Assembly: GCF_032884065.1 (NCBI RefSeq)
Contig: NC_088873.1
Location: 38,489,823 to 38,553,822, forward strand
DNA length: 64,000 nucleotides
From: Artemia franciscana
Lineage: Eukaryota; Arthropoda; Branchiopoda; Anostraca; Artemiidae
Direction of reading: 5' to 3'
The number at the start of each line of letters is the position of its first letter. Position 1 is the stretch's first letter. The notes under the pieces are model-generated. The model worked only from the letters and a program-made list of their open reading frames with translations, did not search any database and was not told the origin of the DNA. Of the stretch, positions 10,901-57,100 are shown piece after piece. The position numbers and the translations under genes are program-made.

Positions 10901-13900
10901 CTTTGGCTCCTTGTTTATCAGCCTCGATGAAATATAGGACTTCCGAAACCCAATCTACAGATATAGATGTTGGTCTGGCGCTATCCCCAATCGGTATATT
11001 CAAATTTTGTGCATGGCCAATTTGTACATCAGACCCATCTGGGATGAAAGAGCGTTTAATTACGCGGTCAGCGCCATCAGCCCAATAAACAATTCTGCTG
11101 TTTATGTCGTAATCAAGGCTGTCAATACGACGCTCTCTACGAACGACCTGGGAAGGTGAAAGGCTCTCATTAGTTATCTAAAATATGTAATTCGCCTAAA
11201 TAATGAGTTAACCTAGTTAGTTAATAAAAATATATAAATAAAACTTTCTTATATATTGATAATTGAAAACTAAATAAGGGATTTAAAATTTACGTTAATA
11301 CAAATTTTAATTCTTATAGATTTACCAGCTTTTCCAAACGATACGGCATATTTTATTCCAATAAATCAAACACGACTAAGATAATTTTGATACTTATAAT
11401 TATTTTACGTTATTATCTTAATTGATTATTCTAATTATAACTTTTATTATTTCAATCATTTATTTTAATATTATCAGACAAACTGAAAATGATTCTGTAA
11501 CTCATCTGACAATCACTCTTGACATCTTAACAATTAGCCATCTGCTTTGTCACAATTTTTTTTACAAATTAAAATACTAAACGACACATAGATTAATGAT
11601 ACAATTAATAATAAAAGGCTTGCTTTATTCCTTCTTCCAGTACGAGACTAATAAAGTAATTAACCCATATTAATTATTTTAAATTAATCGTAATAAATGT
11701 CTGATTAACTATTTATTTTAATTATTTCACATCCAAGAAGTTAACAATGACCTATCTGTCAATCACACTTGACATCTTGACAGTGACTCATCTAGTATCT
11801 TACGATTTTTTTTTCCTTATTCAAAAATAAAAAAAATATATATCACTTTATTCCTGAACCAAATGCTTGTACATGATCCCATTATGTATATAAAACCACC
11901 AATATTCCATTTAATGATAATTCTACTGATTTCTTCTAAGACAACCAAAAAAGTTGAACAAGAAACAAAAAATATAACCCTTTTCTCTTTCCTTTTCATC
12001 ATTCTGAACCCATAATCTGAAACCCAAACTATCATAAAAAAAACCCTCAAAACACTGAAAACCAGCCCCTATCACCAAACAAAATTCAAATTTCTTCCCT
12101 TCAAAAATACACACTTAGGCTCCTAGAACATATTGACAGAAAAAAAAGAGAATAAAAAGAAGGAAAATAAAGTTAAGCAAAATTTCATCTTTGATTCTCT
12201 TTCTTTTCTAAGCTAGCCAAAATCTTAAATCTTGTACTTATTTTTAGATTTAGTTTGAAGTTATCCTAGATTTTCTTTCAAATATCTCTGGGTCAAGATG
12301 GGTGGACTAAACGGAAAACGGCATATAATAAAACCTCAAAAATGGAATAAAGGCGTAAAATTGTAGTGGAACTACTGTAGCATAAAAAAATTACAAAAAA
12401 GACCATTAATAAGGAAAAAACGGTAGAAACACGAGAAAGTAGGAGACCTGCCACAAATTTCATATTGGATGTTGAAAACACTCTCCTTCGGCCCTCCCAC
12501 CCCAAACAGAGAATCCGTGGAAAAATTTGGACGACCAAACTAAAAAAGTATGCTCAACAGTAGCTGGACAAAAAGTGTATTTCCCAATATTGCTTTCTAG
12601 AGCTATAATGCGAGAAAGGTTGAGATGGTTAGAGCACGTTCTGCAGATGAAGAACAACTCTTCCCAGTTTGGGGTGGGAAGATGTTGTGAGGGAAATGGG
12701 AACTTCCTGGGTAGGGTGTAAAGAGGTTTTTTTCAATAGGTCGCGACGGAGAAGGAGCGTGCGTAGCTGTTTTGGCCTCTGGCGGCTTGGTGCTGCAGTG
12801 AGTTGTTAGTAGAAGTAGTAGAAATAAAAGAATATAAATTACCTCCACTTGATGATTTCTTCCAGTTACATTGACAGCTGTTATGTCATCACCAGACGCT
12901 ATGAGCACCACCAAAGGTGAATCAGCCTTGCATATGCTTCTTTGAGGATCAACTGGTGTGAATCCTTCAAGACAACTGCACATATAAGAGCCTTTAAGGT
13001 TAGTACACACTTGAGAACAATTATGACCAAAGGTTGCACATTCATCAATATCATCACAGATTTTGGGATTGCTTCTCGATATGATGTACCCTTTATTGCA
13101 AACACATATGTAACCTCCTCCAGTGACATTGTGACAGCTGTGTTCACATCCACCGTTATCTTCCACAGAGCAAGATTTTGCCTTATGACAGCCTCTTTCG
13201 TCACTTTCATCACCGCAGTCATCCTTTAAGTCACATAACATTGACCTAATAATTAAAGAATTTAAAAGTATGATTTGATCATTTACACAAATGCATCATA
13301 AGCATAAACCACAATAAATTATTCTAGAAAGTGAATTAAAATTCTAAGATATCTCTTTTAATTCTTTTAAAACTAGCAGAAAACATGTTAGTAGGGCAAG
13401 AATTAGCTTATCTTCCTTTACATTACACAAAAAAGCTAATAATTTAGACATCTACCGTGACTTTTCTATGAGAAGAAAACTTAGATAGCAGTAGGTATCT
13501 AGGAAATGCTTAAATCGTTTATACATGTTTAGCATATTCTCCATCTGCACGGTTAAAGCAGCTACCTCACCTGGCAAGTCCTCGTTACGAAATATCTATT
13601 CCTTTTTATTGGGGAATAAGGACTAAAACATCTTAAAAAGAGGGATGCTAAATAAACCCTTTCTTCTACTTCATTTATGGGATATTTTCACTTTCTTCGT
13701 ATGGTCGATATTAAGTCCTGAGCCTTGATATTGGCTATTCCATCTAGTCCTCTAAAAACTATACATCCGTAAGTATTGTTTTTCAGATTTTACGAAGAAA
13801 AGCGGTAAAACTTACTTATCAATGCGTATTTTACAGAACTTTTCGATTTTACGAGTTTCATAATGAAAACACGATTTATCAACTACGAACTGTTCACGAT

Positions 13901-16900
13901 TTTACTACTTACACGATTATAGAACTATAAGGCTTATAACGAAACTGTTAAGCCTTACTTGTCAATGTGGTAGTGACTTACGCAATGGAATTATGGGGTA
14001 AAGTCAAATTCCCTGTACTTGAGGCCCAGGGAACCTTGAGATGAGTCATTCCACTTGGACCTCTACGAACTATATAATTTTACCAAATTTTTCAATTTTA
14101 CAAATTACGAATTATAAAATAGAATTTACGAAATACAAATTATTTATGATTTTACGAGTTATACGATTATACGATTTATGAAAAAAAGTGGTGAAACTTA
14201 TTCGTCAATACAGTTGTGATGAGAACGTTCGAATTCAGTGGTAAAGGTCACATTCTCTGTGTTTGAGGTACAGAGAGCCTTAAGGTGGGCCACCCCACCT
14301 GCACCTCTACGAATTATTTGATTTTAATCAAATTATTCGATTTCGCAAATTGAGAATACGAATTATTTACGCTTTGGTAAACTATGTAATCAAATTATTT
14401 ATGAATAAAAGTAGTAAGATTTACTTGTCAATACAGTTGTGATTTGTGCATTGGAATTCTGTAGCAGAGTCACATTCTCTGCGTTTCTAGCATAGTGGAT
14501 CTTAAGATGGGCCATTCCACCTGGCCCTCTATGAATTATACAATTTTACCCAATTTTCCGATTTTACGAGTTACGAATTAAAAAACACGATTTATAAATT
14601 ACGAATTATTCACGATTTAAAAGAATTATGCAAATACACAGTTACACAGTTTATGAACTAAAGTGCTAAGACTTACTTGTCAATACAGTTGTGATTTGCG
14701 CATTGGAATTCTGTAGCAAAGTCACATTCTCAGGCCCTCTATGAATTATACGATTTTACCAAATTTTACGATTTTACCGAATTTTCCGATTTTACGAGTT
14801 ACGAACTAAAAAACACCATTTATAAATTGCGAATTATTCACGACTTGAAAAAATTATGCAAATAGACAATTACACAGTTTATCAGCTAAAGTGCTAAGAC
14901 TACTTGTCAATACAGTTGTGATTTGCACATTGAAATTCTGTGGTGAAGTCATATTGTCGGTGTTTGAGGTAAAGGGGACTTTAAGATGGGTCATTCCACC
15001 TGATCCTCTATGAATTTCAGGATTTTTCTGAATTTTCGGATTTTACAAGTTATGAATTAAAAAACACGATTTATAAATTACAAATTATTCACGACTTAAA
15101 AGAATTATGCGATTACAAAGTTACACAGTTTATGAACTAAAGTGCTAAGACTTACTTGTCAATACAGTTGTGATTTGCGCATTGGAATTCTGTGGTGAAG
15201 TCACATTCTCTGTGCTTAAGGCACATTGTTATATTATTCTCATCAGAACCATCACTACAATTATCAACACCATCACAGGTCTGCCATTGTGGAATGCATC
15301 TGCAATGTGTACATATTCTCAGTCAGTTGTAATAACCCCAACTATGAATAACTATAACTCCAACTATGAATAACTATAACCCCAACTATGAATCCCCAAC
15401 TGTGAATAACTATAACTATAACCCCAATTATGAATAACTATAACTATAACCCAACTATAAATCCCCAACTATGAACAACTATTAATATACCCCAACTATA
15501 AATAACAATAACTATATTAGTTGTTATTATTTTTAACATTATTTAATGTAATTTAATTAATTAATTTAATTAATTAATTAAATTAGTAATTTTTCCTGTT
15601 ATACGATTTTCCCTGATTACGATTTTTACTGATTTCTATTAGTTAAACATTATCCTAAAGACTCTAGGACCTATCCCGCTGCACAGAATTGTACGACTTG
15701 TATAGAAATACCTATTGTATTAGAAAATTTGAATTTTTATATATTTGCTGCATTGTTAACTAGGATTTCTATTAAATTTTTAGTTCTGTTTCAGGAATAT
15801 CAAGTCTGCTTGTATAAAACAGAATTAAGGTACCATTTTTGTCGTCAGGACCAGATAAAGGGCGATTAGACCCATTTGGACCCTGCAAAAAAATCTAATT
15901 GAGCCCCAAACCTATTGAATTCGATTCTTTTTATCCTGGCCTCTTCTGAATGGAACATTATAAATTCTTACTTTACACTTTAATAAAATTAATTTTAATA
16001 AAATTTGAATTTCAATAAATTTATTGCTTTACTCCATGCAGAGAATTGAATTTAACAGAGTCTTAACTAACAATTAATTAAGATAAATTAAACGCTTCCT
16101 GACTTGTAAGTTCCTTGCGTCAGACCTTCAGCGTGTTTGCCACAGCGGGTTTGAACTCTGGGCCCCGTCTTACCAAGCTGAGATCAAACCCACTCCGACA
16201 TCACAGAGCTATTTTAGTTTTAGTTTTCAGCGTTTCCCTATTTTTAATGTTATTTTTTCTATTTATTTATTTTTCATTTATTTTTTATTTATTTATTTAT
16301 TTTCTATTTATTTTTTTATTTTTTAACTATTTTTCTTCAGCAAAGATTCGCAAATACTTGTTTCAAAGATTATAGAATTAAAAAAAAGGCTTTTCTGCTA
16401 TAGATTCAGTCAAGCCCAGAAGGGACTATTTTTTTTATTGAATATTTGAATTTACCGATATTCCAAATTCAAGTACATGCAAAAAAGATTAAAACGATTC
16501 AAAAATATAGTGGATAAGACGTAAATTGAAGTGGAGCGACACAGAAAATCTGAATAGCAGAAATTTTTTATAAATAAGAATTTTGTTATTACAATGTTTC
16601 CTCATAAGAGGCCACAGAGAAGGATGATACCCAGAATCAAAAAACAAGAAGCTATAAAATTTTTGTGATAACTAAGGAACAGAAAGTAAAGAAAAAAGAA
16701 AAAAATAGGAAAAAATGTGCAAGCTAAAACTAAAAACGGCGAACTAAATAATAATTTCGCTAAATCTCTGTTCCTACAAAATGAATAATAACGAAGGTTG
16801 GATGAGTTTTAATAGCCAAAAGGGAAAAAACAAGAAAAGGAAGATTGGTTGTTCTAATAAAAAATGAGTTAAATGAAAGAAAAAATGCACAACAAATTGA

Positions 16901-22900: not shown

Positions 22901-23391
22901 CTACTTCATTGTAAATAGAAAGTGCCACATTCTGTGTCACAAGGGCCAAATAGGTATGTGTACAGTCAGTGGGGTGCTCAATTTCTATTAAACTCAAGTT
23001 AAAGCACTCGAGTTTTATCTCAGATCAAAGTACTCAAGTTTCATGGCCTCTGTCTGCTACAATAATTATAATGTCATGTCAAAGACCAGAAGGCACATCT
23101 CTCTTCTTTTTCTTGCGATTTTAAAAGTTGTTCTGAATCAGTAAGTCAGTGGTTTGTATATCTGCCTGAATAATAAATGTTTTCCTAAAAATGCTCAAAT
23201 TTTTTATTTGAACGTTTCTTAACACAAAACTTAAAAATCAAATATTGGATGAATTATATCAATCAGAAAGATGAATAAGAAAAAGTGGTACTTGCCTGGT
23301 ATGCATTTACCATCAGCACATTGAAATTCGCTGGATGAGCAGTTTCTATACTGATCTAAACAAAGTCCTTCATCTTCATCAGAGCCGTCAG
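2279..23391 (-). CDS. LRP2: Megalin/LRP2-like endocytic receptor gene, 3' part (7 exons; 5' end lost at gap)
   Basis: Join, in transcript order: 23391-23296 (cut by the gap), 21555-21357, 17877-17716, 15299-15156, 13245-12843, 11147-10796, 3402-2279. Every junction keeps frame. The product is the membrane-proximal part (about 825 residues) of a giant clathrin-coated-pit receptor for lipoproteins, vitamin carriers and other ligands. Order seen: LDLa repeats (CxxGxCIP...CDG..DC.D.SDE), an EGF module, a calcium-binding EGF (IDEC), a YWTD propeller, two EGF modules, one transmembrane helix, and a tail with FTNPVY. The single-propeller end alone would also fit LDLR/VLDLR. The tail motif VAFRQG..V.FGP, the KGE(L)RKQDKFG segment in the last propeller blade and the two EGF modules after the propeller are LRP2-like by family knowledge. 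A full LRP2 is about 4,600 residues, so most of the gene is missing. Confidence 0.88.
3838..3920 (+). repeat. tRNA-Ser-like SINE head
   Basis: The segment has an A box-like AGCCGAGTTGTTGG (from 3847), an anticodon-loop-like GACTTGAAAT and a B box-like GGGTTCAAATC (3896-3906), in the order and spacing of a tRNA-Ser(UGA). The stems pair poorly and the 3' side runs straight into other sequence, so a tRNA-derived SINE head is more likely than a working tRNA. The downstream 3920-4100 could be its body. Confidence 0.5.
4050..4073. repeat. Perfect 10-bp hairpin with GAAG loop
   Basis: ATGGTTGGCC, GAAG, then the exact reverse complement GGCCAACCAT. A shortened version of the same core (GGCCGAAGGGCC) recurs at about 4096-4107, right at the start of the 69-bp array. 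Confidence 0.75.
4108..5419. repeat. 69-bp minisatellite, about 19 copies
   Basis: About 19 head-to-tail units of 69 bp (unit core GCCATGCTCTTCACCTTCC) make 1.31 kb. Because 69 is a multiple of three, one minus-strand frame stays open throughout (repeat [14 protein letters not shown]...), but there is no splice context, signal peptide or known domain, so I treat the open frame as a by-product. Units come in two main forms, TTAATACGGACTG and TAAATACGGTCTG, that alternate for the first ten units on the high-coordinate side, giving a 138-bp higher-order repeat. Confidence 0.9.
6573..7268. repeat. 46-bp direct repeats bracketing about 600 bp
   Basis: AGCTAGCATAGC...TTTTTCATGG occurs identically at 6573-6618 and 7223-7268. 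The two copies diverge abruptly on both sides. Confidence 0.75.
7835..7902. repeat. (TA)n microsatellite
   Basis: About 33 uninterrupted TA dinucleotides. Confidence 0.95.
8056..8294. mobile_element. Mariner-like foldback MITE with TA target duplication
   Basis: Long imperfect terminal inverted repeats of about 85-100 bp: the left arm starts ACAGTTCAAATAGGG and the right arm ends CCCTATTTGAAAACTGT. Both ends are flanked by TA (8054-8055 and 8295-8296), the target of Tc1/mariner elements. The 239-bp element has no coding capacity. Confidence 0.7.
8300..9576. other. Intron sequence, nothing recognised
   Basis: AT-rich with a poly-T tract near 9412 and a G run near 9522. No exon, RNA gene or clear repeat found. 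Confidence 0.4.
9577..10246. repeat. 224-bp tandem repeat, three copies
   Basis: Units begin CCTTAATAGGAGT at 9577, 9799 and 10023 (periods 222 and 224). Copies 2 and 3 are nearly identical; the third ends by losing identity near 10240. Short open frames inside are shadows of the repeat. Confidence 0.9.
10250..10790. other. Intron sequence before the LRP2 donor
   Basis: Purine/pyrimidine-biased sequence with no gene; it ends at the donor of exon 10796-11147. Confidence 0.4.
10796..11147 (-). CDS. LRP2: LRP2-like exon: YWTD propeller blades
   Basis: Acceptor TTCACCTTCCCAG before 11147 and donor ACAG/GTAATA at 10795. The 352 bases begin in phase 0 and leave one base, which joins the next exon to give NPATGTMFWAD. 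It shows [12 protein letters not shown], then [10 protein letters not shown], a degenerate YWTD whose tryptophan is replaced, and [12 protein letters not shown], all typical of class B LDLR repeats. Confidence 0.92.
11148..12587. other. LRP2 intron sequence, nothing recognised
   Basis: AT-rich. It contains two related lines, GACATCTTAACA near 11520 and GACATCTTGACA near 11770, each preceded by a TGACAATCAC-like stretch, suggesting an old duplication. No exon seen. Confidence 0.4.
12588..12821 (+). mobile_element. LINE 3'-end relic, internally deleted
   Basis: It matches the C-terminal part and 3' tail of the LINE at 59140-60677 ([12 protein letters not shown], then CTTGGTGCTGCAGTGAGTTG and a TAG-rich tail), but in the opposite orientation and with the segment between missing. 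The tail stops about 20 bases from the splice donor of the LRP2 exon at 12843. Confidence 0.8.
12843..13245 (-). CDS. LRP2: LRP2-like exon: LDLa end, EGF, Ca-binding EGF
   Basis: Acceptor ATTATTAG before 13245; donor GGAG/GTAATT at 12842. The 403 bases begin with one base completing a Lys codon and end in phase 0. It encodes the second half of an LDLa repeat ([18 protein letters not shown]), an EGF module ([13 protein letters not shown]...), a calcium-binding EGF ([12 protein letters not shown]...) and the start of the propeller. The same order precedes the last propeller of LRP2. Confidence 0.93.
13246..13699. other. LRP2 intron sequence, nothing recognised
   Basis: Ordinary AT-rich intron between the exon acceptor and the exon-derived array. 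Confidence 0.4.
13700..15150 (-). repeat. Tandem array of decayed partial copies of the LRP2 exon 15156-15299
   Basis: Units of about 223-252 bp. Each carries the last about 65 bases of the neighbouring LDLa exon plus its donor: the donor-side signature (CTTACTTGTCAATACAGTTG or variants) lies at 13954, 14197, 14420, 14672, 14900 and, in the real exon, 15151. A further partial is at 13811. Copies keep TGTGACTTCACC...CAACTGTATTGAC to varying degree, and some retain a usable GT donor. The first half of the exon is missing or unrecognisable in them. Confidence 0.85.
15156..15299 (-). CDS. LRP2: LRP2-like exon: LDLa repeats
   Basis: Acceptor ACACATTGCAG before 15299; donor ACAA/GTAAGT at 15155. 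The 144 bases begin with one base (completing Arg) and end with two. They encode [20 protein letters not shown], the calcium-binding end of one LDLa, then [17 protein letters not shown], the start of the next. This is the only intact member of the exon-like array at 13700-15150. Confidence 0.92.
15323..15520. repeat. Short tandem repeat, CCCAACTATGAATAACTATAA-like
   Basis: Irregular units of about 16-22 bases, lying just upstream (in transcript sense) of the acceptor of exon 15156-15299. Confidence 0.85.
15521..17715. other. LRP2 intron sequence
   Basis: No exon found. It includes (TTTA)n-like sequence near 16250-16330 and two related blocks, about 16740-16870 and 17000-17130 (AACTAAATAATAATTTC...GGATGAGTTTTAATAGCC), a diverged direct repeat of about 120 bp with a spacing of about 255. 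Confidence 0.5.
17716..17877 (-). CDS. LRP2: LRP2-like exon: LDLa repeats
   Basis: Acceptor TTCCATAG before 17877; donor GAAG/GTGTGT at 17715. 162 bases, one base completing a codon at the start and two left at the end. It encodes [15 protein letters not shown], then the calcium-binding [14 protein letters not shown], then the start of the next repeat, RFRCNNG. Confidence 0.92.
17995..18890. repeat. 67-bp minisatellite, about 13 copies
   Basis: Head-to-tail units of 67 bp containing CAGTAAGATCATAAA and GTAATATCAGGAGCTTCAG. Variants (AACTC/AATTC, AATAAG/AATGAG) are intermixed. Lies in the LRP2 intron just upstream of exon 17716-17877. There are no unique spacers, so it is not CRISPR-like. Confidence 0.93.
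19622..20083. repeat. About 230-bp direct duplication
   Basis: Copy 1 is 19622-19853 and copy 2 is 19863-20083 (GTTATAATTTCA...GCTCCTCTGAGTTT), with about 95% identity by eye and a small deletion in copy 2. Confidence 0.85.
20084..21356. other. LRP2 intron sequence, nothing recognised
   Basis: AT-rich; a G-rich piece ending in a C-rich piece at about 20435-20620 resembles the short dispersed elements but I could not define its ends. Confidence 0.4.
21357..21555 (-). CDS. LRP2: LRP2-like exon: LDLa repeats
   Basis: Acceptor CCAACTTAG before 21555; donor GAAG/GTGAGT at 21356. The 199 bases start with two bases completing Gly and end with two bases of Arg. They encode [18 protein letters not shown], the end of one LDLa, then a complete LDLa ([13 protein letters not shown]...[16 protein letters not shown]). 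Confidence 0.92.
21610..21955. repeat. About 90-bp degenerate tandem repeat, 4 copies
   Basis: Units contain ACCTTATACAAATTCTGGAAC and AGGTTATAAGAAC; they are diverged, with small indels. They lie in the LRP2 intron just upstream of exon 21357-21555. Confidence 0.8.
21956..23295. other. LRP2 intron sequence, nothing recognised
   Basis: No exon, RNA gene or clear repeat. The open frame that crosses 21801-22244 starts inside the tandem repeat and is not supported. Confidence 0.4.
23296..23391 (-). CDS. LRP2: LRP2-like exon, partial: LDLa repeats, cut by gap
   Basis: 96 visible bases encode [10 protein letters not shown], the end of an LDLa, and the start of the next ([16 protein letters not shown]). 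The 3' boundary that fits the phase of the next exon is CCAG/GCAAGT, a GC donor; the nearby GT (GGCAA/GTACCA) would shift the frame. The 5' side runs into the N gap. Confidence 0.85.
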
Positions 23392-23491
23392 NNNNNNNNN
23401 NNNNNNNNNNNNNNNNNNNNNNNNNNNNNNNNNNNNNNNNNNNNNNNNNNNNNNNNNNNNNNNNNNNNNNNNNNNNNNNNNNNNNNNNNNN
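23392..23491. other. 100-N assembly gap
   Basis: Exactly 100 Ns, the usual placeholder for a gap of unknown size. It falls inside an LRP2 coding exon. Confidence 0.98.
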
Positions 23492-24460
23492 AACCCAAAA
23501 AATTCACTATATATGTTCAATATTTTATTAAGATATACCCATAAAGTAGTTTATCTCAATTTGACTAGGCTAATTGACTCAGAATGTAGAGAGAAAAACC
23601 GGTTTTACCGGTTTTCTAGGGGAACAAAGAGGATAGAAAACTTACTGAGAAATATTTAAACAAATATGCATTATTTGCTTTTAAACTGAAAGAGGCACAT
23701 AATATTATCAATCTACCATCGATTTCACACATGGATTTTCATGGCTTTGAGTTACACTTTTGACAAAAATAAGACATATGTTCTTTCTGAATGCGGAAGC
23801 AGACAAGCTATGTTAAAACACCAGGAACAATAGAGGTCACTAAATACTTTAGCGTAAAGAGCGAGGTATTAGGATATGCGTAATAATTTCTGTTCGTTTT
23901 AAGTTTCAATGCTGCTCCTTACTTCCAGCTGAAAAAACTTCTTCATATTTATTTTTCTTTGTCTTTTTTTTAGTAATGCTAGTAAATTCTGCGCTCCCTT
24001 CATGGAAATTTTCTTCCCCATGACAAATAATTTTTTTAACTGAAAGTAAGGAACGACATTAAAACTTAAAACGAACAGAAATTACTTCGTATATGAAAGG
24101 GGCTGCTTCCTCATCAACGCCCCGCTCTTTACGCTAAAGTTTTTTTTTTTTTTTTTATTTTTTTTTTTTTGGCTAAATGGCTTTCTCATAATTTTGATCG
24201 AATGGTTTTGAGAAAAAAAGAGCGGGAGAGGAAGCCTAGTTGCCTTCCAATTTTTTGGTTAATTAAAAGAGGCAACTAGAACTTTTAATTTTTTATGAAT
24301 CTTTTTATTAGTAAAAGATATACGTAACTTATAAACTAGCTTACGTAAAGAACTTTTGTATAGTCATGTTTTTATTACATATATGAGGGGGTTCGCCCCC
24401 TCGTCAGTACCTCGCTTTTTACACTAAATCTTAAATTTTGTCCCAATTCTTTGAGAATAC

Positions 24461-25218
24461 TACTACTACTACTACTACTAATAACTCACTGCAGCACCAA
24501 GCCGCCTGAGGCCAACACAGCTACGCACGCTCCTCCTCCAACCTAATCTATTTAAAGCCTCCCTCTTTACACCCTCCCAGGAAGTTCCCATTTCCTTTAA
24601 ATCCTTATTTATGACATCCTCCCAACCCAGACAAGGACGACCTGCTTTCCGTGTAGCCCCAGACGGTTGGCCAAAAAGGACAATCTTCGGTAATCTGTCA
24701 TCCTTCATCCGTAGAACGTGGCCTAGCCATCTCAACCTTTCTTTCATTACAGCCCCAGAAAGCGGGATTGAACCACACTTTTCGTACAACCTACTGTTTG
24801 AAATACGGTCAGTCAGCCGGGTACCCAGAACAATCCGTAGGCAATTTCTCTGGAAAACATCTAGTAAATTTTCATCTGCTTTTCGGAGTGTCCATGCTTC
24901 AGAGCCATATTTGACCACTGTCATCACTGTAGCTTCCAATATTCTAATCTTGGTTTGTAGGCTTATCTTTCTATTCTTCCAAACTTTTTTTAACTGTGAA
25001 AAAACACCCTGAGCTTTAGCTATTCTACTTTTAACATCTTCACTGCTCCCACCATCTTTACTAATAATACTACCAAGGTAACTGAAGCTCCCAACTTGAT
25101 CAATCTTTTCGTTACCTAAGGTCACCTGTTCATCTTCACTTATTCCTAACCTTAGTGACTTAGTCTTCTTAACATTAATTTTCAAGCCTATTTTAGCACC
25201 CTGAACTCGTAAAACCTC
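24461..25218 (-). mobile_element. 5'-truncated LINE, nested in repeat R1
   Basis: Matches 59140-59911 of the larger LINE at about 95%. It has the same (TAG)n 3' tail and an open frame of 235 codons (24478-25185) covering the end of the reverse transcriptase ORF (RKAGRPCLGWEDVI..., ending GAAVSY). The uninterrupted target is preserved at about 44104-44135, which defines both ends. Confidence 0.88.
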
Positions 25219-25861
25219 CCCCCTGAATCACAAAAGCCGTAGAATAAATAGTTGAAATTACTAAAAAATACTTTAGCGTAAAGAGAGAGGTATCAGGAGG
25301 AGGTGAGCCCCTCATATGGGTAATAATTTCTGTTCGTTTTAATTTTTAATGCTGTTTCTTACTTCCCGCTGAAATAAACTTTTTCATATTTATTTTTTCA
25401 TTGTTTTTTTTTTTAGTAATGCTAGTAAATTATGCGCTCCCTTCATGGAAACTTTCTTCCCCCATGACAAATTCCTCGATGGAAAGTCCCCCCAGCATAT
25501 CTCCCTCTTCTCAACCCCCCCCCCCCCCCCAACCGAAAAATCCTTCTGAAAACGCCTGTACCCTTCCCAATAACCATTACTATATGTAAGCACTGGTGAA
25601 AGTTTGTAACTCGTAGCCCCTCCCACGGGGGCTGTGGGGGAGTAAGTCGTCCCCAAAGACATACTTATAAGGTTTTTTGACTACGCTAAACAAAATGGCT
25701 ATCTCAGAATATTGATCCGTTGACTTTGGGAAAATAATTAGCTTGGGAGGGGGCCTAGGTGCCCTCGAATTTTTTTGGTCGCTTAAAAAGGGCACTAGAA
25801 CTTTTCATTTCTGTTAGAATGATCCCTCTCGCAACATTTTAGGACAACTGGGTCGATACGA

Positions 25862-25912
25862 TCACCCCTGGAAAAAAAAACAACAAAAAACAAACAAACG
25901 AACAAACAAACA
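25862..25912. repeat. A-rich (AAAC)n-like tract in R1
   Basis: Runs of A with CAAACAAACGAACAAAC; the equivalent in the copy at 43440-43476 is a pure T tract. Confidence 0.6.
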
Positions 25913-26689
25913 CGCATCCGTGATCTGCCTTCTGGCAAAAAATACAAAATTCCACATTTTTGTAGATAGGAGCTTGAAACTTCTACAGTAGGGTTAACTG
26001 ATACGCTGGATCTGATGGTGTGATTTTGTTAAGATTCTATGACTTTTAGGGGGTGTTTCCCCCTATTTTCTAAAATAACGCAAATTTTCTCAGGCTCGTA
26101 CCTTTTGATGCGTAAGACTAAACTTGATGAAACTTATATATTTAAAATCAGCATTAAAATGCGATTCTTTTGATGTAGCTATTGGTATCAAAATTCCATT
26201 TTTTAGAGTTTTGGTTACTATTGAGCCGGGTCGCTCTTTACTACAGTTCGTTTCTGACTTTTAGTTTATTATTTCATTCAGTCCTTAGTCTGGATTACAA
26301 TCACAAAATGGTTCTTGTAATCTGCCATGAAGACCAAACTTGGCTTTTAAAAAGTAATTATGGCTGGAATTTTTTTTTAGAAGGCCCTTAAGAATTTCTG
26401 AAGAATGAAAAAGGGCATGTTCATCATTAGCTTTCATAAACCCTTCAGTAGGGAACTTTCATTATTTCAATAGCTGCTATAGAGAACCCCATTGTCTATT
26501 TTTCAATTAAATTCCGGTCAAACTTTTGTTCAGTTTTTGGTCATGAGATTCCGAAAGTTTTATTAAAGATAATTCCAAGACACCTTGTTTAACATAAAAT
26601 AACCTTCAAAAGGATAATCAGGAAAAGCAAAAGTTGAATAACCATTGCTTGCTTGGGGGTTTTATTGGGAAATAGTAAAGAGTCAAGCT

Positions 26690-26791
26690 CTTAATAGTTG
26701 GTAGTGAAGGAAGAGCGTGTGCAGCTCTGTTGTACACTGGTGGCTCAGTGCTGCGAAGAGCTGCAAACATTAGCAGTAATTAGCAGTAGTA
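26690..26791 (+). mobile_element. Short LINE 3'-end relic
   Basis: AATAGTTGGTAGTGAAGGAAG...GGCTCAGTGCTGCGAAGAGCTG followed by TAGCAGTAATTAGCAGTAGTA resembles the last 80 bases and TAG tail of the LINE family seen at 12588-12821 and 59140-60677. Confidence 0.6.
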
Positions 26792-26887
26792 CATTTCGTA
26801 CACATTCCATGTCGTAGTTGTATTTAGATCTGATGAACATGGACAGGGCTGCCAACTAGAACTTTTCCTCTAATGCCGCCTGAAAGA

Positions 26888-26973
26888 TCTAGCGGTATAT
26901 TTTTCATCCCTGTTGGGATTCTTTTCTTGAGAGGCATTTTTTCCTCAAATACCTCGTGCTCCGGTCAAGACTC

Positions 26974-27023
<50 letters not shown>

Positions 27024-27712: not shown

Positions 27713-27742
27713 CAAAGCGAGAACCTGCAGGTTCTCGCTTTG
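27713..27742. repeat. 30-bp perfect palindrome
   Basis: CAAAGCGAGAACCTG followed by its exact reverse complement with no loop. Directly after it GTGCGTAACA is repeated four times (27742-27785). Confidence 0.85.
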
Positions 27743-33500: not shown

Positions 33501-36500
33501 ATTTTTTATTTTGAAATCTATTTCAAGCACCCTTAAACTTAAAAACCTTTACAATGAATTTAAATGTTTAAAATATGTTTTTTCTTCTTCCCATTCCTTT
33601 AAAACTTAAAAAGTCACTTTAATGTTTATATATGATCGTGGATCATGGCTCATCCAGATCATGGCTTCTCAAGCATTGAGCACAACTCAATTAAGCATCT
33701 CCTAACTGAATGTCAGAGACAGCGGCGTCAATTTCTGGAAATTAGGGGGAGGGACAAAAATACATTTTCCAGAATCTAGGTGGGGAGGGGGGACAATTTT
33801 GTTGCCTTTCCGGTTTTTTCAATGACAGTACCAAAAAAACCATTATCCGTGAAAATGCCGAAAAAGTTATCATAAAAAGTCTAGGGGGACGTGAAAATAC
33901 TCAGGGATTCAAATGCTCCCCTCTCCAAGATTATGCCACTGGTGAGAGGCAATAAAATCTTGGCAAAATTGTTGAAATGTTTTGGAATTGGTGGGAAAAT
34001 CAGAAAATGGAATTCTTGTTTCTCCTGGAGATCTGTTTTAGGGAATCCTCTACTCTCTGCGCATGATTATGTGAGTAAAAGTAGGTTGAAAATTGCTACT
34101 CTTGTATGAAGGAGAATTTTACTTGTATAGATTTCAAAATTCCGAAGGATATCATAATTCCGAGCTCGTTGTTTTCTGTGTTTTATCAGTGTCTTAAGTG
34201 TTATGAACAACTCTTTGGTACATTTTTTAAGTTTAATTTACCCCCCACCGAACAAAAATACTGGCCTTTGCACCTTCTCCTGATCTTTTAGGACATTTAG
34301 TTCGATTCGATCCGCCGCGGAAAAAACAAACAAAAACATTGGAAACTTGTAGAAATGTTTTTATTGGGAGAGAGGAGCCCGAAAAAAACTTGCGAACGGG
34401 AGGAGGCTAAGGCTTGAAACAGAACATTAAAAAATTCGTGATAAAGACTACTTTTGTGTGTAACGTAATTACTCTTGGGGATGAAATTTTCAGGTTAATA
34501 AATTTACAATTTCTTTTTCCTTGACGGGAAAGTTAAATTTCTTTTCTGATGCGAGTTGTAACCGAGGCTTTTGATTGATTGATCGATCAATCATATTTAG
34601 CTTGACGAATTTTGTTGATCATTTTCTAAACGCAGTACAATTGTCCTGAGTTACAGATAAGTTTTAGAGAATTAGCTTTTTAATAACTTTCTGACATCTT
34701 TCAACATAATAACAGGTTCGACTTCTGGGGATTGCCCTAGAATATATCTTGGGGTGGCTGAACCCTTTGAAAAACAACCCTTTGCCGAATTTTTCTTTTC
34801 TGTTTCAAGTATATAATTACATGCTTTTGAGTATGTGATGGCTAAAAAGATCCTTCCGATTCTTAGACCCCCCCCCCTACCGACCAGTCTGCTAGAGCCT
34901 CCGCAAATCAAACACTTTTCTAAGATTCCCCCCATCATTGTCTAAATTTAAGCTATTTTATAAAATTCACCAGTTTCCTTGCATTCCCAAACATCTTTGC
35001 GCTTGTTATTTATATAAACCATTTAATTTTTTTATTCTTATTGTTTTAAATCCTTGTTGGTATTTGAAACGAAAGGTGAGTGATTCAGAGCAAGTAATTT
35101 ATGGTTATGGCTACAACGGTTTACTTAGTTGTTTTATTTTTCTTTTTTTTTATCCCATCCGATTTTGCGGTTTTTGCTTTAGGAAGTTGTTTCAACAGCT
35201 TTAGTCACGAAGTAAACTCGGATTGTTTTTGTTTTTTTTTTTAGTTTTTGGTATGTATTTACTATTATCATTTTTTTTTTACCTAATGCCAGTGTACTGA
35301 GATGAAAGCAGGGAATTACTTAACAACTTCAAAAAGAATTTTCGCATACCGATCACGGAGCGGAGAGTACGTGTACAGCATACACGTAGCGCAGGCACCA
35401 ATCTCCCGACTCTCTCCCTTCGGCCTGGAGTGTAATGCATGGTTCGAATCATATCACCTCATGCTTTCCATGTTTTTGCCCCAGATGTCTTAAAACAACT
35501 AGTTCGGTGAATTATTGTTTTAGATGTTCACAACAGAACCATTTACCTTGTTTAGGAAATAATAAGAATTCCTTACCTAATGGAGCTGGGGAATATCATC
35601 ATTTTTCTACTCATTTGCGCTTCTTTGATGTGTTTTTTTACCCCTTCCCCAGAGGGAGAAATTATGCGTAGATCCTCACGTTTCTTAGATATCACTTCCT
35701 TGCAGTGACGCCCATAAGGGGGAAAGGAGTTAGATGAATTTGCTCCCCTTGATTTTTGTCCTCCTCCTAGATTTTGGAACATACCTTTTTCTGTATTTCT
35801 TTTGTTGTCATTTGAAAAGATCGAAAAGAAAAACCAAATTGCTTCCCTGTATTTAAAATAATTCGTAAAATACTTATTATCTCCCCCTTAAAATTCTTGA
35901 ATAGGAATCACTGCTTCCATACATGACAAATGGACAACAAAGGGCAACATTTTGGCCCCGTATAGTTAGATTTCATAGTCTTTGTTAATAAAGGAAAAGA
36001 AAAAATGGAAACAAATCTTTAGGCTTAACCCTATAAGAACCTCTAGTTTTAAAAATGATTTTCAATCCCTGATTTCAGTAAATCTTTAAATTCTAAAATG
36101 CATAGCCGAAATGGCACAACGGAGAAACTAAATTTTCGTTCTGAATAATTTACTGTAATTTTGGATAAATCCATTCATAAATGAATTCTTTAAATCACTC
36201 TCTTTGGCACAGGGTATGGGTTAAAGAGCTTGCATGTTAATGACAATGTGATACTTATTTAAATTAAAAATTAAAAATTCAAGTCCCTTTCTTCCTAATT
36301 CTCAGGCTAAAGGAAGGGAGTGCCTGTTTGTGAAATTGTCTGTATATGGAGCTAATAGTAACATAACACTTAATACATACAGTTAAAGAGAAAGAAAAAA
36401 TAGAGGAATGAGAGAGTACAGTGTTGACAGATCTGAAACAAATGACGATTTCCTTATTAGTGACACTTAAGGACTGTCTTTATATTTAAGGACACTAACG

Positions 36501-39500
36501 GACTGGAAACAAAAAAAACGGACTGGAAAGAGAACTTCGTTCTCTTTTGTTTGAATGAATTTATATTCTCACTTCATTCTTTTTGTCAGTCCTGGTTGAA
36601 CTTCGTTGAAGTAAGGATGCTAGGGCTGTTTTTAAAAAAAGTTTTTAAAAAACATTATTTAGTTTTAATTCTCACATTTAATGTAAGTTTATTTATATAT
36701 CCATATTTTCTCTCTTGTTCTCATATTGTGCTGAAGACGGCCCATGGAAATAGGGCCGAAATATTCACAGAACTGATTTCCCCTGTCTTGAAAAGATTTT
36801 CCCTATTGTTTCTACTTTGTATTTGTTTGTTACTTTCTTTAACAGATAACATTAATGACAATATGATACTTATTTAAGTTCCAACATTTTAAATTCAAGC
36901 CTGTTTTCAGAACATCGTAAATACATGTGACAGTTCTGAAACAAATGACAATTTCCTTATTAATGACACTTAAGCACTGTCTTTATATTTAAGGACACTT
37001 ACGGACTGGGAAGAAACGACTTTCTTTAATGGATAACATTAATGACAATATGATACTTATTTAAATTCCAACATTTTAAATTACAGCCTGTTTTCAATAT
37101 ATTGTAAATAAATGTGACAGTTCGGAAACAAATGACGATTTCCTTAACAATGATACTTAAGGACTTTATATTTAAGGACACTTACGGACTGGAGAGTAAG
37201 TAATGACTTTCTTTAATGGATAATATTAATGATAATATGATATTTATTTAATTCCAATATTTTAAATTCAAGTCCGATTTAATGCATTGGAAATACATGT
37301 CAAATTTCTGAAACAAAGGACGATTTTTTTTTATTAATGATACTTAAGGCCTTACTTTATATTTAAGGACGCTTACGGACTGGAAAGTAATTACTTTCTT
37401 TAATCGATAATATTAATGACAATATGATACTTATTTAAATTTCAATATTTTAAATTCAAGTCCGTTTTTAATACTTTAGAAATATATGTCACATTTCTGA
37501 AACAAATGACGAGTTCCTTAATAATGATACTTAAGGACTTACTTTATATTTAAGGACACTTAGTAAAAGATAAGGACTAGAAAGAAATGACTCTTTCCTA
37601 CACAATATTAATGAAAATTTGATACTTATTTAAATTCCAACATTTTAAATTCAATTCCATTTTTTTATTCTCAGGCTCAAGCAAGGGAGTGTCTGTTTGA
37701 GAAATTGTCCCTATATGGAGCTAACAACAATGCGAATACACCTGATAGATCTAGAAAAAGAGAAAGAAGAAACAGAGGAATGACGGAATACAGTGTTGAC
37801 AGGTCGGAAACAAATGACGATTTCCTGAATAATGACGAGGATGATTTTGTTGCCTCATTTGAAAGTGCCCAAGAAGCTGCTGAGGTAAGCCTTTTTTTTT
37901 ATTTTTAATCACGAATGTATCGCGGTATTATGTATCGTGTGATACACGACAGCATCACGAAATGCATTTCATAGTGTTGTTTTCTAGTCAAATCAGACAC
38001 TTTATAGAGACATTCATTTTAAGGTAATTAAAATTAAACTTATTTATAAAATAGTAACCAATTGGAAGTTCGTTAAAGTCTTCATATGTCTTCGAAGGGG
38101 GGGGGGGCAAGTTTGGAAGTTCCCCTTTCTATCTCGTCTATTCCATCTCGTCTTTCCATCTTACCTTTCTATTTCAGCCTTATCTAAAGACGAAACCAAA
38201 ACTTTAATTATGGGGATAATGTAGTATACTAAAAATAGAGTAACGAGACCTCTTTGTAATGTTTCTATTTTTATTACAGCTTATTATTATCTCTCTTGAA
38301 TTTAGCCAGATAATAGAGAGCGTTTTTTTTTTTTTTTTAATATTCTTTCGTAACACCTTTCTCTTCTTCTTGAAATCAGAATCTTACATTTTTCCTATCA
38401 AAAACTTGGCAGTCGTAGCAGAAACGAAAGTGTATGCAGAACAATTCACAATAGACAGATGCAATTCCAGTTTATTATACTAGCTGATTCACCTGTTTAT
38501 TGAGTGAGCTAAAAGTACACAGCTCATATTTCAATTACACCTCAAAAGAAACAACTAAAGATACTGCAAGTTGATTCAAAGTGCCAAGACAGTGAAGATA
38601 AAATATGATTGTACTGATCAAGGACGTATCCGGGGGGGGGGGGGGGGCTGAGCCCCATTGTAAAAACATAGCAAAACCGTATAACAACAACTTGTTGATG
38701 TGTTTTCAACAGTTTTTTTTTGTATAACCTGTCCCCTTCCCCCCACGAAAAATACTCCTCCACCCGTAAAAAATCCTAGATACGGCCCTGGTACTGATTA
38801 ATAAGTAAGTTAAGCAACCATGTACGTCCTGGGGCGAATACACAATTAAAAGTTGTTTTTTTTTGGGGGGGGTAGTATAAAAAAATGGGTTTCCTCATTG
38901 CAATATTTGAGCCATCCGACCCTGTAATTAGCATAATTTTTATCTTCTGGGTGGGCATCTGCCCCCTAAAACCACACTCTGAACCCATGTGCAGCTAAGC
39001 AGCGGCGTGGCGAGTGTAGTAGTGGTGGATCCCCAATTGAAAATAGTCATGGGTGAAAAATCAGCAGAAAAAAGTTACAAATACCAAAAATTCAAAATGT
39101 TTTGATTTGGATGTCCTTGGTAATTTTAAAAATGACTTGGAAAATATATAGTGCTGCTATCTTTGAAAATTGGTGTCAATTTACGAAAATATTGGGGTGG
39201 GGGCAAAATGTATTTTTCAAAAATCAGGGTAGGGGCAAATTTGTCGTTTTTTCAACTTTTTCCAACTAAAACAACGAAAAAGGCATTTTTTGAAAGAAAA
39301 TTTCCACAGAACCATATTTTCAAAATATAAGGAAGTGCAAAAAGTCTGGGGGCACGTGCCGCCTCCCCTCCCCTAATTGACGCCACTTTCTCTGAAAATA
39401 AACTAATATTTTACTACCTTTTTTCGCTTGTAATTACTTCGCTATACGATAGATTCGAAGGACCTGGGAACTTAATTGAAAACAAAGTATTATTCATTTG

Positions 39501-42133: not shown

Positions 42134-42185
<52 letters not shown>

Positions 42186-51100: not shown

Positions 51101-54100
51101 ATTCCACGTTTTTCGAAAAAAATAGTTATTAAAATTTTTAAAAATATTTACGAAAACTACCATATTTTACCGAACAAGATTTAAATTGAACGTTTTCGCT
51201 TGATGGTTTTAGGGTATTAAAAAGTAGAGTTGTGACAAAGAGTCAAACTTTAGCGTGAAGAGCAAGGTGATGAAGAGGGGACAACTCCTTTACTATACGG
51301 AATAATTTCTGTTCGTTTTAAGTTTTAATGTCGCTCCTTACTGACCCAGAAGACGGGTGCAGTTCGAGGGCATCATAAATGCCACTCCTTCCATTTCAAC
51401 GAGTCAAAATTTACCGTAGCTTTTAAATCTATTAATATACGAGGTATCAAAATAGTCTCTAAAATATATTCTCTGGTACACAGTGAAGGTCCGGTTTTTT
51501 ACTCTTGTCGTAAATGCAGAATAGATGGAATGTGGAAGTACGACTTTGGTGAATTTAAAAGTGGATAATCGTCCTTTGGCAGGTGTATCTGATCGGTTGG
51601 AAGGTCACAACGCTGTTTTTTTCTTTGAGCGTTATGACCGTCGTATCAGAGGTGGAGTTGATTAAAACATATCTTCTGGAGGAAGTAATAGATTTTTACC
51701 TGATTAGATACCATATAAAATAGAAAAATAGAATGTGGCAGCCAGGGCCTTATCCAGGATTTATGTCCGGGGGAGGTTTATTTTCGGGGGAGGGGACGTT
51801 TACAAGAAAACTTAAAATAGAGTATCAAAATTATCAGAGAAATATTTGGGAGGGAGGGTCAAAGCCTCCAGCCCCCCCGGATGCGGCTTTGGTGGAAGCA
51901 GTTAAACAGCTACCAAGTACCCCGTGGTGCTTTTGGGGGAATATATGTTTCAGTTTTTAAATTAGAGATGCAGCATAATTTTTTTCCAGATCTAGAGGGA
52001 TTATAACCCCCATTCCCCAATTAGTGCACCCTGTAGTCATCTAACAAAGATATTCAGAAATAAGTAGTATGTCCCTATCAGTGGAATAGGACCAACACAA
52101 AACTCTAAAATTCTTAGGGGAACGAATATGCATGAAAAGAAGCACGAAAGCAAAGAAGAAAAAAAAAGAAAAAAAAGCAAAAAAAGCAAAAAAAAGCAAA
52201 AAAAGCAAAAAAAAAAGCAAAGAAAGCAAAAATATATCATATGCTGCTTGCAAGTGTTGCGATTATCACTGTTATAGCTTAGTTAATTGACGAAACATGA
52301 AATAATGAACGATTCAGAATTAAAATCTGATCCGAAAAATATATGTAACTCGATTTACTATTTTGGTCATTGTCCCTGTTTCACTGATGGGACGATATGT
52401 GGTAGTATAACTAGCAATCAAAGGGTAGGTTATAGTGTGTTAAATCGCCTTCTGGTACTGTTTTTTCGACCTCCCTCATTCTGTTCTACCCGCAAATAAT
52501 CGAGAAACTGTGATCTCAAACTGCGTTTTCTTATCATCTAACCCAGCTGCAAAGGAAAAAACTTGGGATTCATCCTTCCCTAAGGGTTGGGCCATAGGTG
52601 TTGAGCCGGGTTTCACCAGGGGGACTTCCACTACAGATCAGACCAGAATTCTAGTTCTTATGGAGGGATGAGTCACGCCTAAGCAGAGCCGTTCCTAGGG
52701 TTGGTGCTACCCAGGATAAGATTAATTACAGCACCCCCTCCCCAATTATAAGCCAGTTGCCACAACTCAAATATAAGGATATATAATATGAGCTAATATA
52801 AGTGGACAGAGTGAAAAAATTGAATCAAAGTGGGCAATTCCCAAGCTGCGGTAATCCCAAGCAACGGTGTCTGGTGCAACTACCCTGATCCCCCCTGGAA
52901 ACTGTAATGCAACTAGAATACGCTCGAGAGGGGTCATAGCCCCTGTACTCTTAGCGTCTGGGAGGTCCTGCTAGTTAGTATGTATGTTTTATTTTTATTT
53001 TTGTGGAACACAAATAAAGGTATAACCAAAACAAAGCCCTGGTCTTCTGCTTATCGCTGCATTGTTCATTAAGTCTTTTTCAAAACAATATTTAGATAAA
53101 ACATCAATGGAATTTTAAACATACACAACTCTGATTCTTGGCGAGGAAGGGGAGGCTAAATAATTTTCCTAAGAAGTAGGGGAAAACATTAAAAGATACA
53201 TTTTCAGGCCGCGATTTTCATCTGGGAAGAAGACCCTCCGCCCCCTGTATTCGTGTATGAGGGAAACGCTCTAGAAAAAAAAATTACAAATAACAGTTTG
53301 TGTTAAAACCGAATCCAGCATAAAAGGCTGTATCTAGAGGGGGGATTGAGCGTGACAAAAATGAATATCAACAAATTTAATGCATTTTTCAAGTTTTTTG
53401 TAACCCCCCCCCCCCCAAAAAAAAAAAGAAAATTCCCCCCATGAACAAAAAATCCTGTTTAAGGCCTTGCCAACATGAAGGTTTTTTTTATTCTAAATAT
53501 AAAAGGTTAAATTCTTGTTTTCAAAGATGCGTCCGTTGCAAACCAGCTCAACCCAAATGGATTACGTTCAAATTCAAAGCGATTGGTTGGTGTCTCGGCC
53601 GGGGATATACGCAAAATAAATATGGACCCATGCAATCCAATTATTGTTTATCCCTTTCCGTTATCATTGGAAATAGGGGGATATTTTAAGTACCTTTCTA
53701 GTGAAGGATGAGTTTTGTTTGATTACAAGAATGCCACTTCCGATGATTAAAATTTTTTATGTATTGGGGTACGTTGTTCGAAAAACTAATCTGTATTCAT
53801 AGATGACCGTTTGTGACAGGCACGTAAGCAATATTTTTAATGGAGGACACTGAAAAAGTATTAAATATGTAAATTATTATAAAATGTAGGATACTAAGGA
53901 AGAAATAATAAAACAAATTTTTACGGGGTTACGGGGTCCTTACTTTAGTGAGCAAAGAGCTATGGGTGAGTCACTTTCACTGTAAACTTTGAGTTTATCG
54001 TCTGAGAACTGTGTACAATAGTCTAAAATACGTAGAGGTAAAACGAGTAACAGACAGGGTTGCCACCCGATGAAAAAAATCACTAGATTTTAGTATTTTT

Positions 54101-57100
54101 TGTTAATAATTTTCTTCGACAATCTAGTGATTTTGGTACTGATTTAGTGGTTTATTTTCTTTAGGCAATATAACAAATCACTAGAAATAGTGTTAAATCA
54201 CTAGGGGTGCAACCCCTAGTTTCGAGTATAGTTTCTAGTAGGGGTGCAACCATACGTAAAAACACACATAGAAAAACCCACCGTATTAAATTACCTTGAA
54301 ACCCATCACATAAATGTTCTATTGCTGACGGTCGCATAAAATCCGGTGAGATTAGTCGCCCAATAAAAAAATCAAAAATGTCACGAATCTACAGACCAGC
54401 ACCTTCAAAAACCATCTCCTCCTTCAGCTACTAAAATCACCACACAAGTTAACAGGGGTCCTATAAAAGCAGCCCTACGTCCGAGTTGAGTGTGCCAACT
54501 CACGAAAACGCAGGGGAGGATTATTTTTTACTGCATTTTTTAAATGTAAATACCAAAAAGGTATTTTCTACCCGTCTGTACTAACAGATGGGGGTTTTCA
54601 GGTTTTCAAGTCTGTTGCAACATTCTCCCAACAGATGGGTCTTCATCAGAGGCGGTTTCAGAGGGGGCAAAGGGTGTTACATGCCCCGGGCGCAGAAATT
54701 TTAGGGGCACAAAATTTCAAATAAATAATCTAACGCTTATAACCAGTTTGCAATTCTTATATATATATTTTTTTTAATAAAACAAAGTAGAGGGCACAGC
54801 TGGCATCAAGGGAAAGGAAATTGAATCCAGAATTTTCGTTTTTCCTATATCTTCATCACCATTACTTGAAAATAAAAGTATTTAGACTGAATTTAATTGA
54901 GTTTTTCTTTTTAGGATTAATTGTGTGATACGGAGGTAAAGGGCTCTTTGCAAATGTAAGAGTCGCCTGTCAAATATTATTAGCAACTGCAGTGTTGGTA
55001 GCCAGAATGAGCAGTTGTTTAGGAAACTTACATAGATATCAACGTACCTCAGATCGACTATGGGCCAGGAGCGACTAAATGATTTAGCGTTAATAAGCAT
55101 AGAACGCGAAGAATTAGAAGCAATCATTTGGGTTGAGGCAATTAATAATTTTGCCAGGGCTAAAATAAAAAAAAAGCCAGATTTAAGTAAACGCAAAATT
55201 TAGTTAATAAATGAACGTCTTGTTAATAAATGAAATTTTTGTTAAAATATGGCATGAAAATTTTCGAGGCATGGTGGGGTTAATCAAGATATTGCCCCAG
55301 GATAAGAGAGGACAGAACGACAGCTGGCCATCATGGATAAACTCCTTAGGGGGGCCACTCCAAATGGAGGTGCAGCGGCTAATAAAGCTATTCTTCAATT
55401 ACTCACTGTCTATAGGTAATCTGACTGAACCGTATTTTGGCGTGTTTGTCCCATTCTCCCGATCTCAACGACATTTTAAAACATTTAGTCATGAAAAGCC
55501 TCTGAAGCACGCAAAGAAAGTCTAAGATTGCAAAGGATGTGGTACGAGCTGTGGCACCGCAAAAATAAAAATAATCCCTTCATTTTTAAAGCACTGTATC
55601 GTTTTCCTTGAAACCCAGTGAAGATTTCGAGTTATTTTTAGCCGTTTAACCGCAAAATGGTTCGTGTTTTATATGTGTTTATTTCCCTTTGGGGGGGGGG
55701 GGAAGGTTGAGCTTGGACTCAGAAACGCCCTTACTGGGTTAGGTATTGAAGGGATATTAACCAAAAAGTTTTAAACTAATATTATGATTCTTTTTTAAAG
55801 CACTAGCATATTTGCGGAAAGCCTCAGAAACACAAGAGGAAATCCAAAGATTGCAGAGGATGTGGCACGAGCTGTGGCACCACGAAAAACAATAATCTTT
55901 CATTTCTAAACCATTATATCGTTTTCTATGAAAGTCAATGAAGATTTTAAGTTATTATTAGCCCTTTAACTGCAAAACGAATTTTATTTTAATATTTGTT
56001 TATTTTTCTTGGGGGGGGGGGCTGAGCTAGGACTCAGAAACATCCTTTCCTGGGTAAGGTCTAGAAGGGATATTAATCAAAAAATTTAAGAACTAAAATC
56101 AAGATTCTTTTTACAGCACTAGCACATTTGCGGAAAGCCTCGGAAACACACGAGGAAAGCCAAAGATTACAGCGGATGTGCCGCGAGCTGAGGAGGCGAG
56201 AACAACTTGCTTTGATCCTTCGGAATGTTTACCTTGAAGCTATGGACACTTTAGCGGATGCCCAAGAAGTAGCAGAACCTTTAGATATTGACCTAGACCC
56301 ACCATCAATTATGCGTAAGGGCTATATTATTTGAATTTTAAATTTATTTGCTCCTATTAAATTTCTTGTAGCCAAATTTAGGACGGTGTCAATAATACTA
56401 TAAATTAGATAGTTTTGTTAATAAGAACCTCCTCTCCCTCGTGCTTTATGTTCATGGTTGAGGAAATATAAATGTACTGTAATTTAAATCCTTGATTTAT
56501 GTCAAAAGAGGGATGGCTTTTATCAAGTTCATCCTTAATCATCTAAGACCAAAGTTATATTACTTCTTCAGCACAGCAAGTGAGTTAGGCCAGAATTCTG
56601 GCCGTATTTTGCGACCGAACTATGGATCACATAATAAATTATAAGTTCATAAATTTTTTGCCTATTTTCTGAATTTTGCATTTGATCAAGTCCTATTTGT
56701 GATCAGATCTTGAATCCAGAGTTTTATCCGTTTTTTTTGGGGGGAGGGGGGTACAAAAACACTTTAAAAAATGCGTCAAAAGTATTTATATTTATTCTTG
56801 TTACGCTTTTATGAGTCAAAAACAAATTTTGGGGGAGGAGGGAGGTTGTTTGATCCCTCTGACCCCCTGGATACGGCCTTGCTTGAATCCCACAATTTTT
56901 TACACTTTCCGTGTATTTTTCAGCTGTTTTTACGTTGTTTTTTTTTTTTTTTTTTTAGCTGCGCCAACCTAAAAAAATTCATAATACTCAGTTGCTCTGT
57001 TTAGTTAAAATTAATACAGCATAAAATATCTCAAGTTTTTGAGTCCCCTTATTATGTTTCCAAAAATGAGGCCGGGATCCTACCACTGCAATGGTAGTCG

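Follow-up and report, generated by a model that had tools for sequence, protein, structure and literature searches.

The window analysed here is a stretch of 64,000 nucleotides of the Artemia franciscana genome (C11:38489823-38553822 within a 1.27 Gb assembly), and it contains parts of two genes on opposite strands, a rhophilin-like gene (+) and an LRP2-like gene (-). Three exons of these genes are adjoined by tandem arrays of partial copies of themselves, hereafter referred to as arrays A, B and C. An earlier reading of the letters alone (the original prediction) had reported the three arrays and their distribution between the two genes, and both observations were confirmed in the sequence. 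It had also proposed a recurrent process that captures coding edges at an unusual rate. We found that the sampled exons are duplicated no more often than the surrounding DNA, and the arrays are very probably relics of ordinary local tandem duplication, a process that would be frequent in the parts of the genome examined and blind to exons.

The analysis also took in the surroundings of the window, about 200 kb (region C11:38399823-38663822), in which the locus is assembled twice. Positions 1-23391 of the window belong to one locus copy and positions 23492-64000 to the other; the two assembled copies lie end to end, at an offset of about 76 kb, and their identity is mostly 95-98%.

Local copies at exons and in the surrounding DNA

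Direct copies were sought in the 3-kb flanks of every exon and of every 200-bp tile of non-exon sequence. In the window, where 12 exons could be defined rather than the 13 counted previously, a direct local copy was found for 3/12 exons versus 94/286 non-exon tiles, and a match was obtained for only one of 104 tiles when the flanks were shuffled. The tiles of the locus outside the window (52/143) and those upstream of the locus (22/92) were scored in the same manner. When locus and window were taken together, copies were found for 8/35 exons and 146/429 tiles, and windows centred on exon edges, 26 of 70 of which had a local copy, did not differ from the tiles. The kinase loci described below yielded 2/18 exons versus 22/152 tiles of the same short loci. 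The pooled counts were 10/53 exons and 168/581 tiles (Fisher P=0.15); this test omits the upstream tile set, with which the tile count would be 190/673. The unusual rate of capture of coding edges is therefore not borne out, as the tiles match the exons or exceed them.

Random placement of the 15 local arrays of the window, from a list compiled by hand, gave a similar picture. With whole array spans, a mean of 2.8 exons were hit and three or more hits had a probability of 0.55. The mean fell to 1.4 when only placements straddling an exon edge were counted (P=0.17), and to 1.35 for segments of unit length (P=0.15).

Structure of arrays A, B and C

Arrays A, B and C were examined by Tandem Repeats Finder, self-BLAST, BLAST of the exons against the region and unit alignments, and the exon-copy matches had E-values of 5e-8 to 5e-39. 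The duplicated segments were found by BLAST and in the alignments to cross the intron-exon boundary (Table 1). In all three arrays the parental exon is complete and its copies are found next to the edge that was duplicated, the layout that tandem duplication over a single edge necessarily produces. The edge is not retained in every copy, as it has been deleted from the short units of array B, and the first copy of array C begins inside the exon. The aligned units of the three arrays differ by roughly 10-40%.

Table 1. Positions of the arrays, their parental exons and related features (window coordinates, unless C11 is given)
Feature	Position	Strand	Gene	Description
Intact exon beside array A	15156-15299	-	LRP2-like	144 nt; open frame; acceptor TGCAG, donor GTAAGT
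Array A	13871-14974	-	LRP2-like	five partial copies; units 14974-14748, 14747-14496, 14495-14273, 14272-14030, 14029-13871
Intact exon beside array B	37675-37884	+	rhophilin-like	210 nt; open frame between CTCAG and GTAAGC
Array B	36852-37607	+	rhophilin-like	four units of 187-195 bp; intact exon closes array
Fuller copy of the 5' part of exon B	36237-36513	+	rhophilin-like	intron tail, CAG acceptor, exon positions 1-162
Intact exon beside array C	56117-56314	+	rhophilin-like	198 nt; open frame; acceptor TACAG, donor GTAAGG
Array C	55495-56116	+	rhophilin-like	two partial copies: exon positions 18-77 at 55495, 1-77 at 55801
Array D	C11:38590110-38590697		LRP2-like, right assembled copy	five 117-bp copies
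Single-copy state of array D	23101-23391	-	LRP2-like	exon 3' part and intron; exon end placed at 23296
Array E	C11:38640169-38640387		LRP2-like	2.7 copies of 80 bp, 100% match
Array F	at exon rightL11		LRP2-like	~150-bp units, decayed
Copy at exon rightL04			LRP2-like	one separated partial copy
Copies at exon rightL10			LRP2-like	5'-edge copy set, high-coordinate side
100-N gap	23392-23491	none		scaffold join between two near-identical locus copies

The intact exon beside array A encodes parts of two LDL-receptor class A modules (Ldl_recept_a match). Each unit of this array (159-252 bp) consists of the last 56-71 bp of the exon, an intact or altered donor and 87-180 bp of intron, and some of the copies have a weaker donor or none. 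Near position 13820 a sixth fragment could be made out by eye, but the tail of the array beyond 13871 aligned no better than shuffled sequences. Among the partial copies, the mean identity (calculated by hand) was 0.73 for the exon part and 0.70 for the intron part, and the identity of the intact exon to the copies was 0.78-0.86. Since the exon parts are about as diverged as the intron parts, the alignments indicate that the copies of array A drift and that the intact exon does not.

The four units of array B share one internal deletion of roughly 110-120 bp, which extends over the acceptor and about the first 112 positions of the exon, and they retain about exon positions 113-162. Because all four short units share this deletion, it presumably preceded the amplification. 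The fuller copy of the 5' part of the same exon, which is absent from the original prediction, shows 80% identity and has one in-frame stop and a 3-nt deletion, and it lacks the 3' edge of the exon. In array C, each copy is followed by about 240 bp of upstream-intron sequence, and the period is about 316 bp; alignment of a possible extension upstream of 55495 gave an ambiguous result.

Arrays A (five partial copies) and C (two copies plus the exon) have the same copy number in both assembled locus copies. For array B, the left assembled copy has five short units versus four, one being split by a 1.9-kb insertion. Whole-genome searches with a part of array A (13700-14700), with array C and with the units of array B retrieved, among the best candidates scored, only this locus and its further copies. 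On these matches a satellite or mobile unit is rejected for the three arrays, and the idea that they are a source of satellite DNA is not upheld.

Further cases at the locus and in other genes

The sequence outside the window provided 24 more LRP2-like exons, for which the boundaries, on the right-hand side of the locus, are approximate. In the resulting set of 35 exons, the window exon at 23295-23391, which has no local copy, was replaced by its counterpart in the right assembled copy, which carries array D. Direct local copies were found for ten of the 35, and for eight after removal of exons rightL16 and rightL17, which match only each other, as paralogous LDL-receptor modules. The eight cases are arrays A to F and the copies at exons rightL04 and rightL10, five of them beyond those first described. 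Between the rightL04 exon and its partial copy, at C11:38650842-38651482, we observed by eye an apparent fragment of the non-long terminal repeat (non-LTR) retrotransposon located at 59157-60716 of the window.

A second sample consisted of 18 exon-like places outside contig C11, hand-picked for short open frames from 135 kinase matches. Two of these 18 exons have local partial copies: one has four further copies of its own 3' edge and the other a single, separated partial copy. We take the former to be ROCK-like and the latter CDK5-like, judging by the translated sequences. Adjacent head-to-tail units are present in arrays A, B, C, D and E and at the ROCK-like exon, and the cases at rightL04 and the CDK5-like exon consist of one separated copy each.

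All ten cases are single-edge duplications. None of them is a whole-exon duplicate with both splice sites and an open frame; every copy is partial and derives from one edge. For the eight cases at the locus, such a uniform result has a probability of 0.016 under random placement without a filter, some of the unit lengths having been estimated. Exon-edge tandem copying is thus recurrent, extends beyond this locus and occurs in unlinked genes. The recurrence that had been proposed holds, with copies at 8/35 exons of the locus and at 2/18 kinase exons on other contigs; the targeting of coding edges is not supported.

Arrays D and E

Array D looks newly born, to judge from its sequence. Its copies differ from each other by 0-2 of 117 bases, and copy 5 is the same as the window allele over the 117 bp. 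Copies 1 and 3 are identical, as are copies 2 and 4, as if the array had gained a pair of units at once. The trinucleotide GAT is found at both breakpoints in the single-copy allele, and the array is open in frame throughout, forming five open units of 39 codons. The LRP2-like exon next to the gap seems to end in a GC donor at 23294-23296 (CCAG/GCAAGT), judged from the frame into the next exon, and this GCAAGT donor is repeated five times in the array.

The unit of array E includes 23 bases that are absent from the intron beyond the last copy and that contain an inverted repeat (by eye), and the array carries three GTAAGT donors. The 34 bases between the exon-edge copies, GTAAGT...TTTTTTAG, resemble a tiny intron created by duplication; this candidate intron is probably too short for splicing. 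As a lead from two junctions, arrays D and E suggest end-joining or template switching at microhomology, followed by unequal exchange.

Origin of the arrays

An origin in local tandem duplication blind to exons would involve the following steps. The tandemly repeated segment spans a single edge of the exon, such that the repeated unit consists either of an intron end and the start of the exon or of an exon end and the start of the intron; the intact exon remains complete at one end of the array, and its partial copies land in the intron. These features can be read directly from the arrays. The first event may have been a microhomology-mediated duplication, as suggested by the GAT of array D and by the filler with an inverted repeat in array E, and in later events the array may have changed by one unit or two units at a time, through unequal exchange or slippage, as suggested by the paired identities in array D and the one-unit difference in array B. 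Purifying selection would then remove duplications lying inside exons or comprising whole exons, leaving the single-edge ones: the latter would survive because the intact exon stays and the extra copy falls in the intron, and the former are presumably removed because they change the protein. The non-intact copies would subsequently decay like intron, as they do in array A, and the splice-site copies would mostly be unused decoys.

We suggest more tentatively, as a possibility that we regard as somewhat doubtful, that local tandem duplication is frequent enough in this genome for about one in every four to nine exons to have partial copies, in most cases including its splice site, in the following intron, and that some of these are younger than the divergence of the locus copies. 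Such copies might constitute a genome-wide supply of decoy splice sites, of in-frame exon extensions, as in array D, and of candidate introns. If this frequency is correct, the birth, spread and decay of exon-edge copies would be observable in this genome.

Several points weigh against a purely exon-blind process, or against the counts on which it is based. The tiles used as a control are correlated and include mobile-element copies and the three arrays themselves, and the Fisher tests are therefore rough; outside the window the exons are only approximately delimited, and the search at the kinase loci covered flanks of no more than 1-1.1 kb. When arrays of any period were considered, 6/22 exon edges had one within 50 bp versus 4.7 expected, and 10/22 had one within 300 bp versus 8.0 expected. 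Seven of the ten cases are at exon 3' edges (P=0.34). The copies, previously said to lie always on the low-coordinate side of the exon, do so for arrays A, B and C but not at rightL10 or at the kinase exon of locus L030, so that eight of the ten cases are on that side (P=0.11). These numbers leave room for a modest exon-edge bias. As regards the mechanism, a microhomology of no more than 3 bp, as at array D, can arise by chance, and the window allele, which starts at a contig end with only 35 bp ahead of the duplicated segment, may be an assembly collapse.

Specific capture of exon edges, in which boundaries would be duplicated above other DNA, for example through template switching or breakage at splice sites or within transcribed exons, appears improbable. 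Four genes are affected (LRP2-like, rhophilin-like, ROCK-like and CDK5-like), every case lies at an exon edge, with the preponderance of 3' edges given above, and the arrays are slightly nearer to exon edges than random positions. However, neither the exons nor the edge-centred windows exceed the rate of the tiles, and an edge pattern follows from the selection filter. Exon-edge targeting is rejected on the tile, edge-window, placement and pooled counts.

It is very improbable that the copies are functional and have been retained by selection as splice sites (alternative or decoy) or as alternative ends of exons. Among the copies of array A, conservation is no higher in the exon parts than in the intron parts, copy A5 has no donor, the fuller copy of exon B has a stop and the short B units have no acceptor, and both exon edges were present in none of the copies examined. 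These losses stand against the strong splice sites seen in A3 (GTAAGT), A6 (GTAAGG), array E (three GTAAGT) and array D (five GCAAGT), the CAG acceptor of the fuller B copy and the open frame of array D. Functional alternative exons are rejected on the unit alignments of arrays A and B, with their decay, lost sites and stop.

Creation of the arrays by long-read or scaffolding errors, which the original prediction had named as a possible refutation, is extremely improbable, for although the window holds a scaffold join and duplicate locus copies, and arrays D (opposite the join) and E consist of identical or nearly identical copies, the aligned units of A, B and C are divergent, the second assembled copy shows these arrays again in the same arrangement, part of array A is also present on contig C5362, and a simple assembly duplication of these three arrays is rejected on the comparison of the two assembled copies.

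Relation to known systems

The closest precedent for arrays formed by local duplication is the potato RdRp gene, in which a tandem genomic duplication across an intron-exon boundary became a new intron; an 83-bp tandem duplication, distinct from the first and located within an intron, is also described for this gene (Ma, Lan and Niu 2016, PMC4974935). As in the case reported here, the duplication crosses an intron-exon boundary and the splice signals come from the parental intron. However, the potato case is that of one duplication and a new spliced intron with RNA evidence, whereas the Artemia cases are mostly multi-copy and mostly decayed arrays, affect many exons and are known from DNA alone.

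Tandem duplication of exon segments is treated as a route of intron gain in a review (PMC3443670), and the model of Rogers (1989) and the experiment of Hellsten (2011), as described in PMC4974935, involve intron gain by tandem duplication of an exon segment containing AGGT. These systems resemble ours in that local tandem duplication in coding genes supplies splice-site sequence. They differ in that the duplicated segment lies inside the exon, whereas none of our ten cases is confined to the exon interior.

A general and exon-independent source of small tandem duplications is provided by breaks with 3' overhangs, through fill-in by Pol alpha-primase (Schimmel 2021, PMC8355091). The likeness is in the kind of product; for the arrays described here, the mechanism is suggested by one 3-bp microhomology and one filler. 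In Drosophila, small segmental duplications are stated to be frequent and mostly eliminated by selection, with 83.4% of them under 500 bp (Li 2019, PMC6380325). That study had polymorphism data, whereas ours is based on a single locus in two assembled copies and on a small set of exons. The papers listed by a search of the open-access literature included none devoted to genome-wide exon-edge arrays.

The edge pattern does not need exon targeting and may be the residue left by selection after blind duplication, which we propose as a null model for similar reports. The exon-edge duplications in this genome differ in age, and one of them is represented by a single copy in one assembled locus copy and by five in the other. 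With such material it may be possible to ask on what basis the spliceosome selects one of several identical tandem splice sites, and with what frequency exon-edge duplications turn into introns or exon extensions.

Genes and other features of the locus

Inside each locus copy, the rhophilin-like gene (+) faces the LRP2-like gene (-). As the two locus copies are joined at the gap, the gene order across it in the window is doubtful and probably not real. The paired copies represent either a recent tandem duplication or two alleles that should not both have been retained in the scaffold. Window positions 8605-16508 are present a further time, at 98.4-99.6% identity, as the short contig C5362.

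The window contains the 3' part of the LRP2-like gene, in which Pfam scans identified LDL-receptor A, LDL-receptor B and EGF modules; the name is based on LRP2 being the closest solved relative of one exon (E=2.3e-33). For the rhophilin-like gene, of which a part lies inside the window, one exon matched BRO1, the other Pfam matches were only weak, and the PDZ-like part had no Pfam match. We take this gene to be rhophilin-like on the basis of the BRO1 match and of the general make-up of the family. In view of that make-up another exon would be expected between 37884 and 49912, and a simple pattern search of this interval did not find one.

Other repeats of the window include a 224-bp array with three copies at 9576-10243. 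Judged by the match coordinates, this stretch lacks about one unit (227 bp) on contig C5362, and the copy number of the array probably varies. Two short-period arrays differ between the locus copies. The first, with a 69-bp unit, has 19 copies at 97% in the window (4107-5419) and 6 in the second assembled copy; the other has 13.3 versus 18.2 copies. The 69-bp array lies inside an open frame of 490 codons on the reverse strand, within an LRP2-like intron, and a unit length divisible by three easily preserves an open frame. Copies of a non-LTR retrotransposon reverse transcriptase were observed at window positions 59157-60716, open over 519 codons, and 24478-25227.

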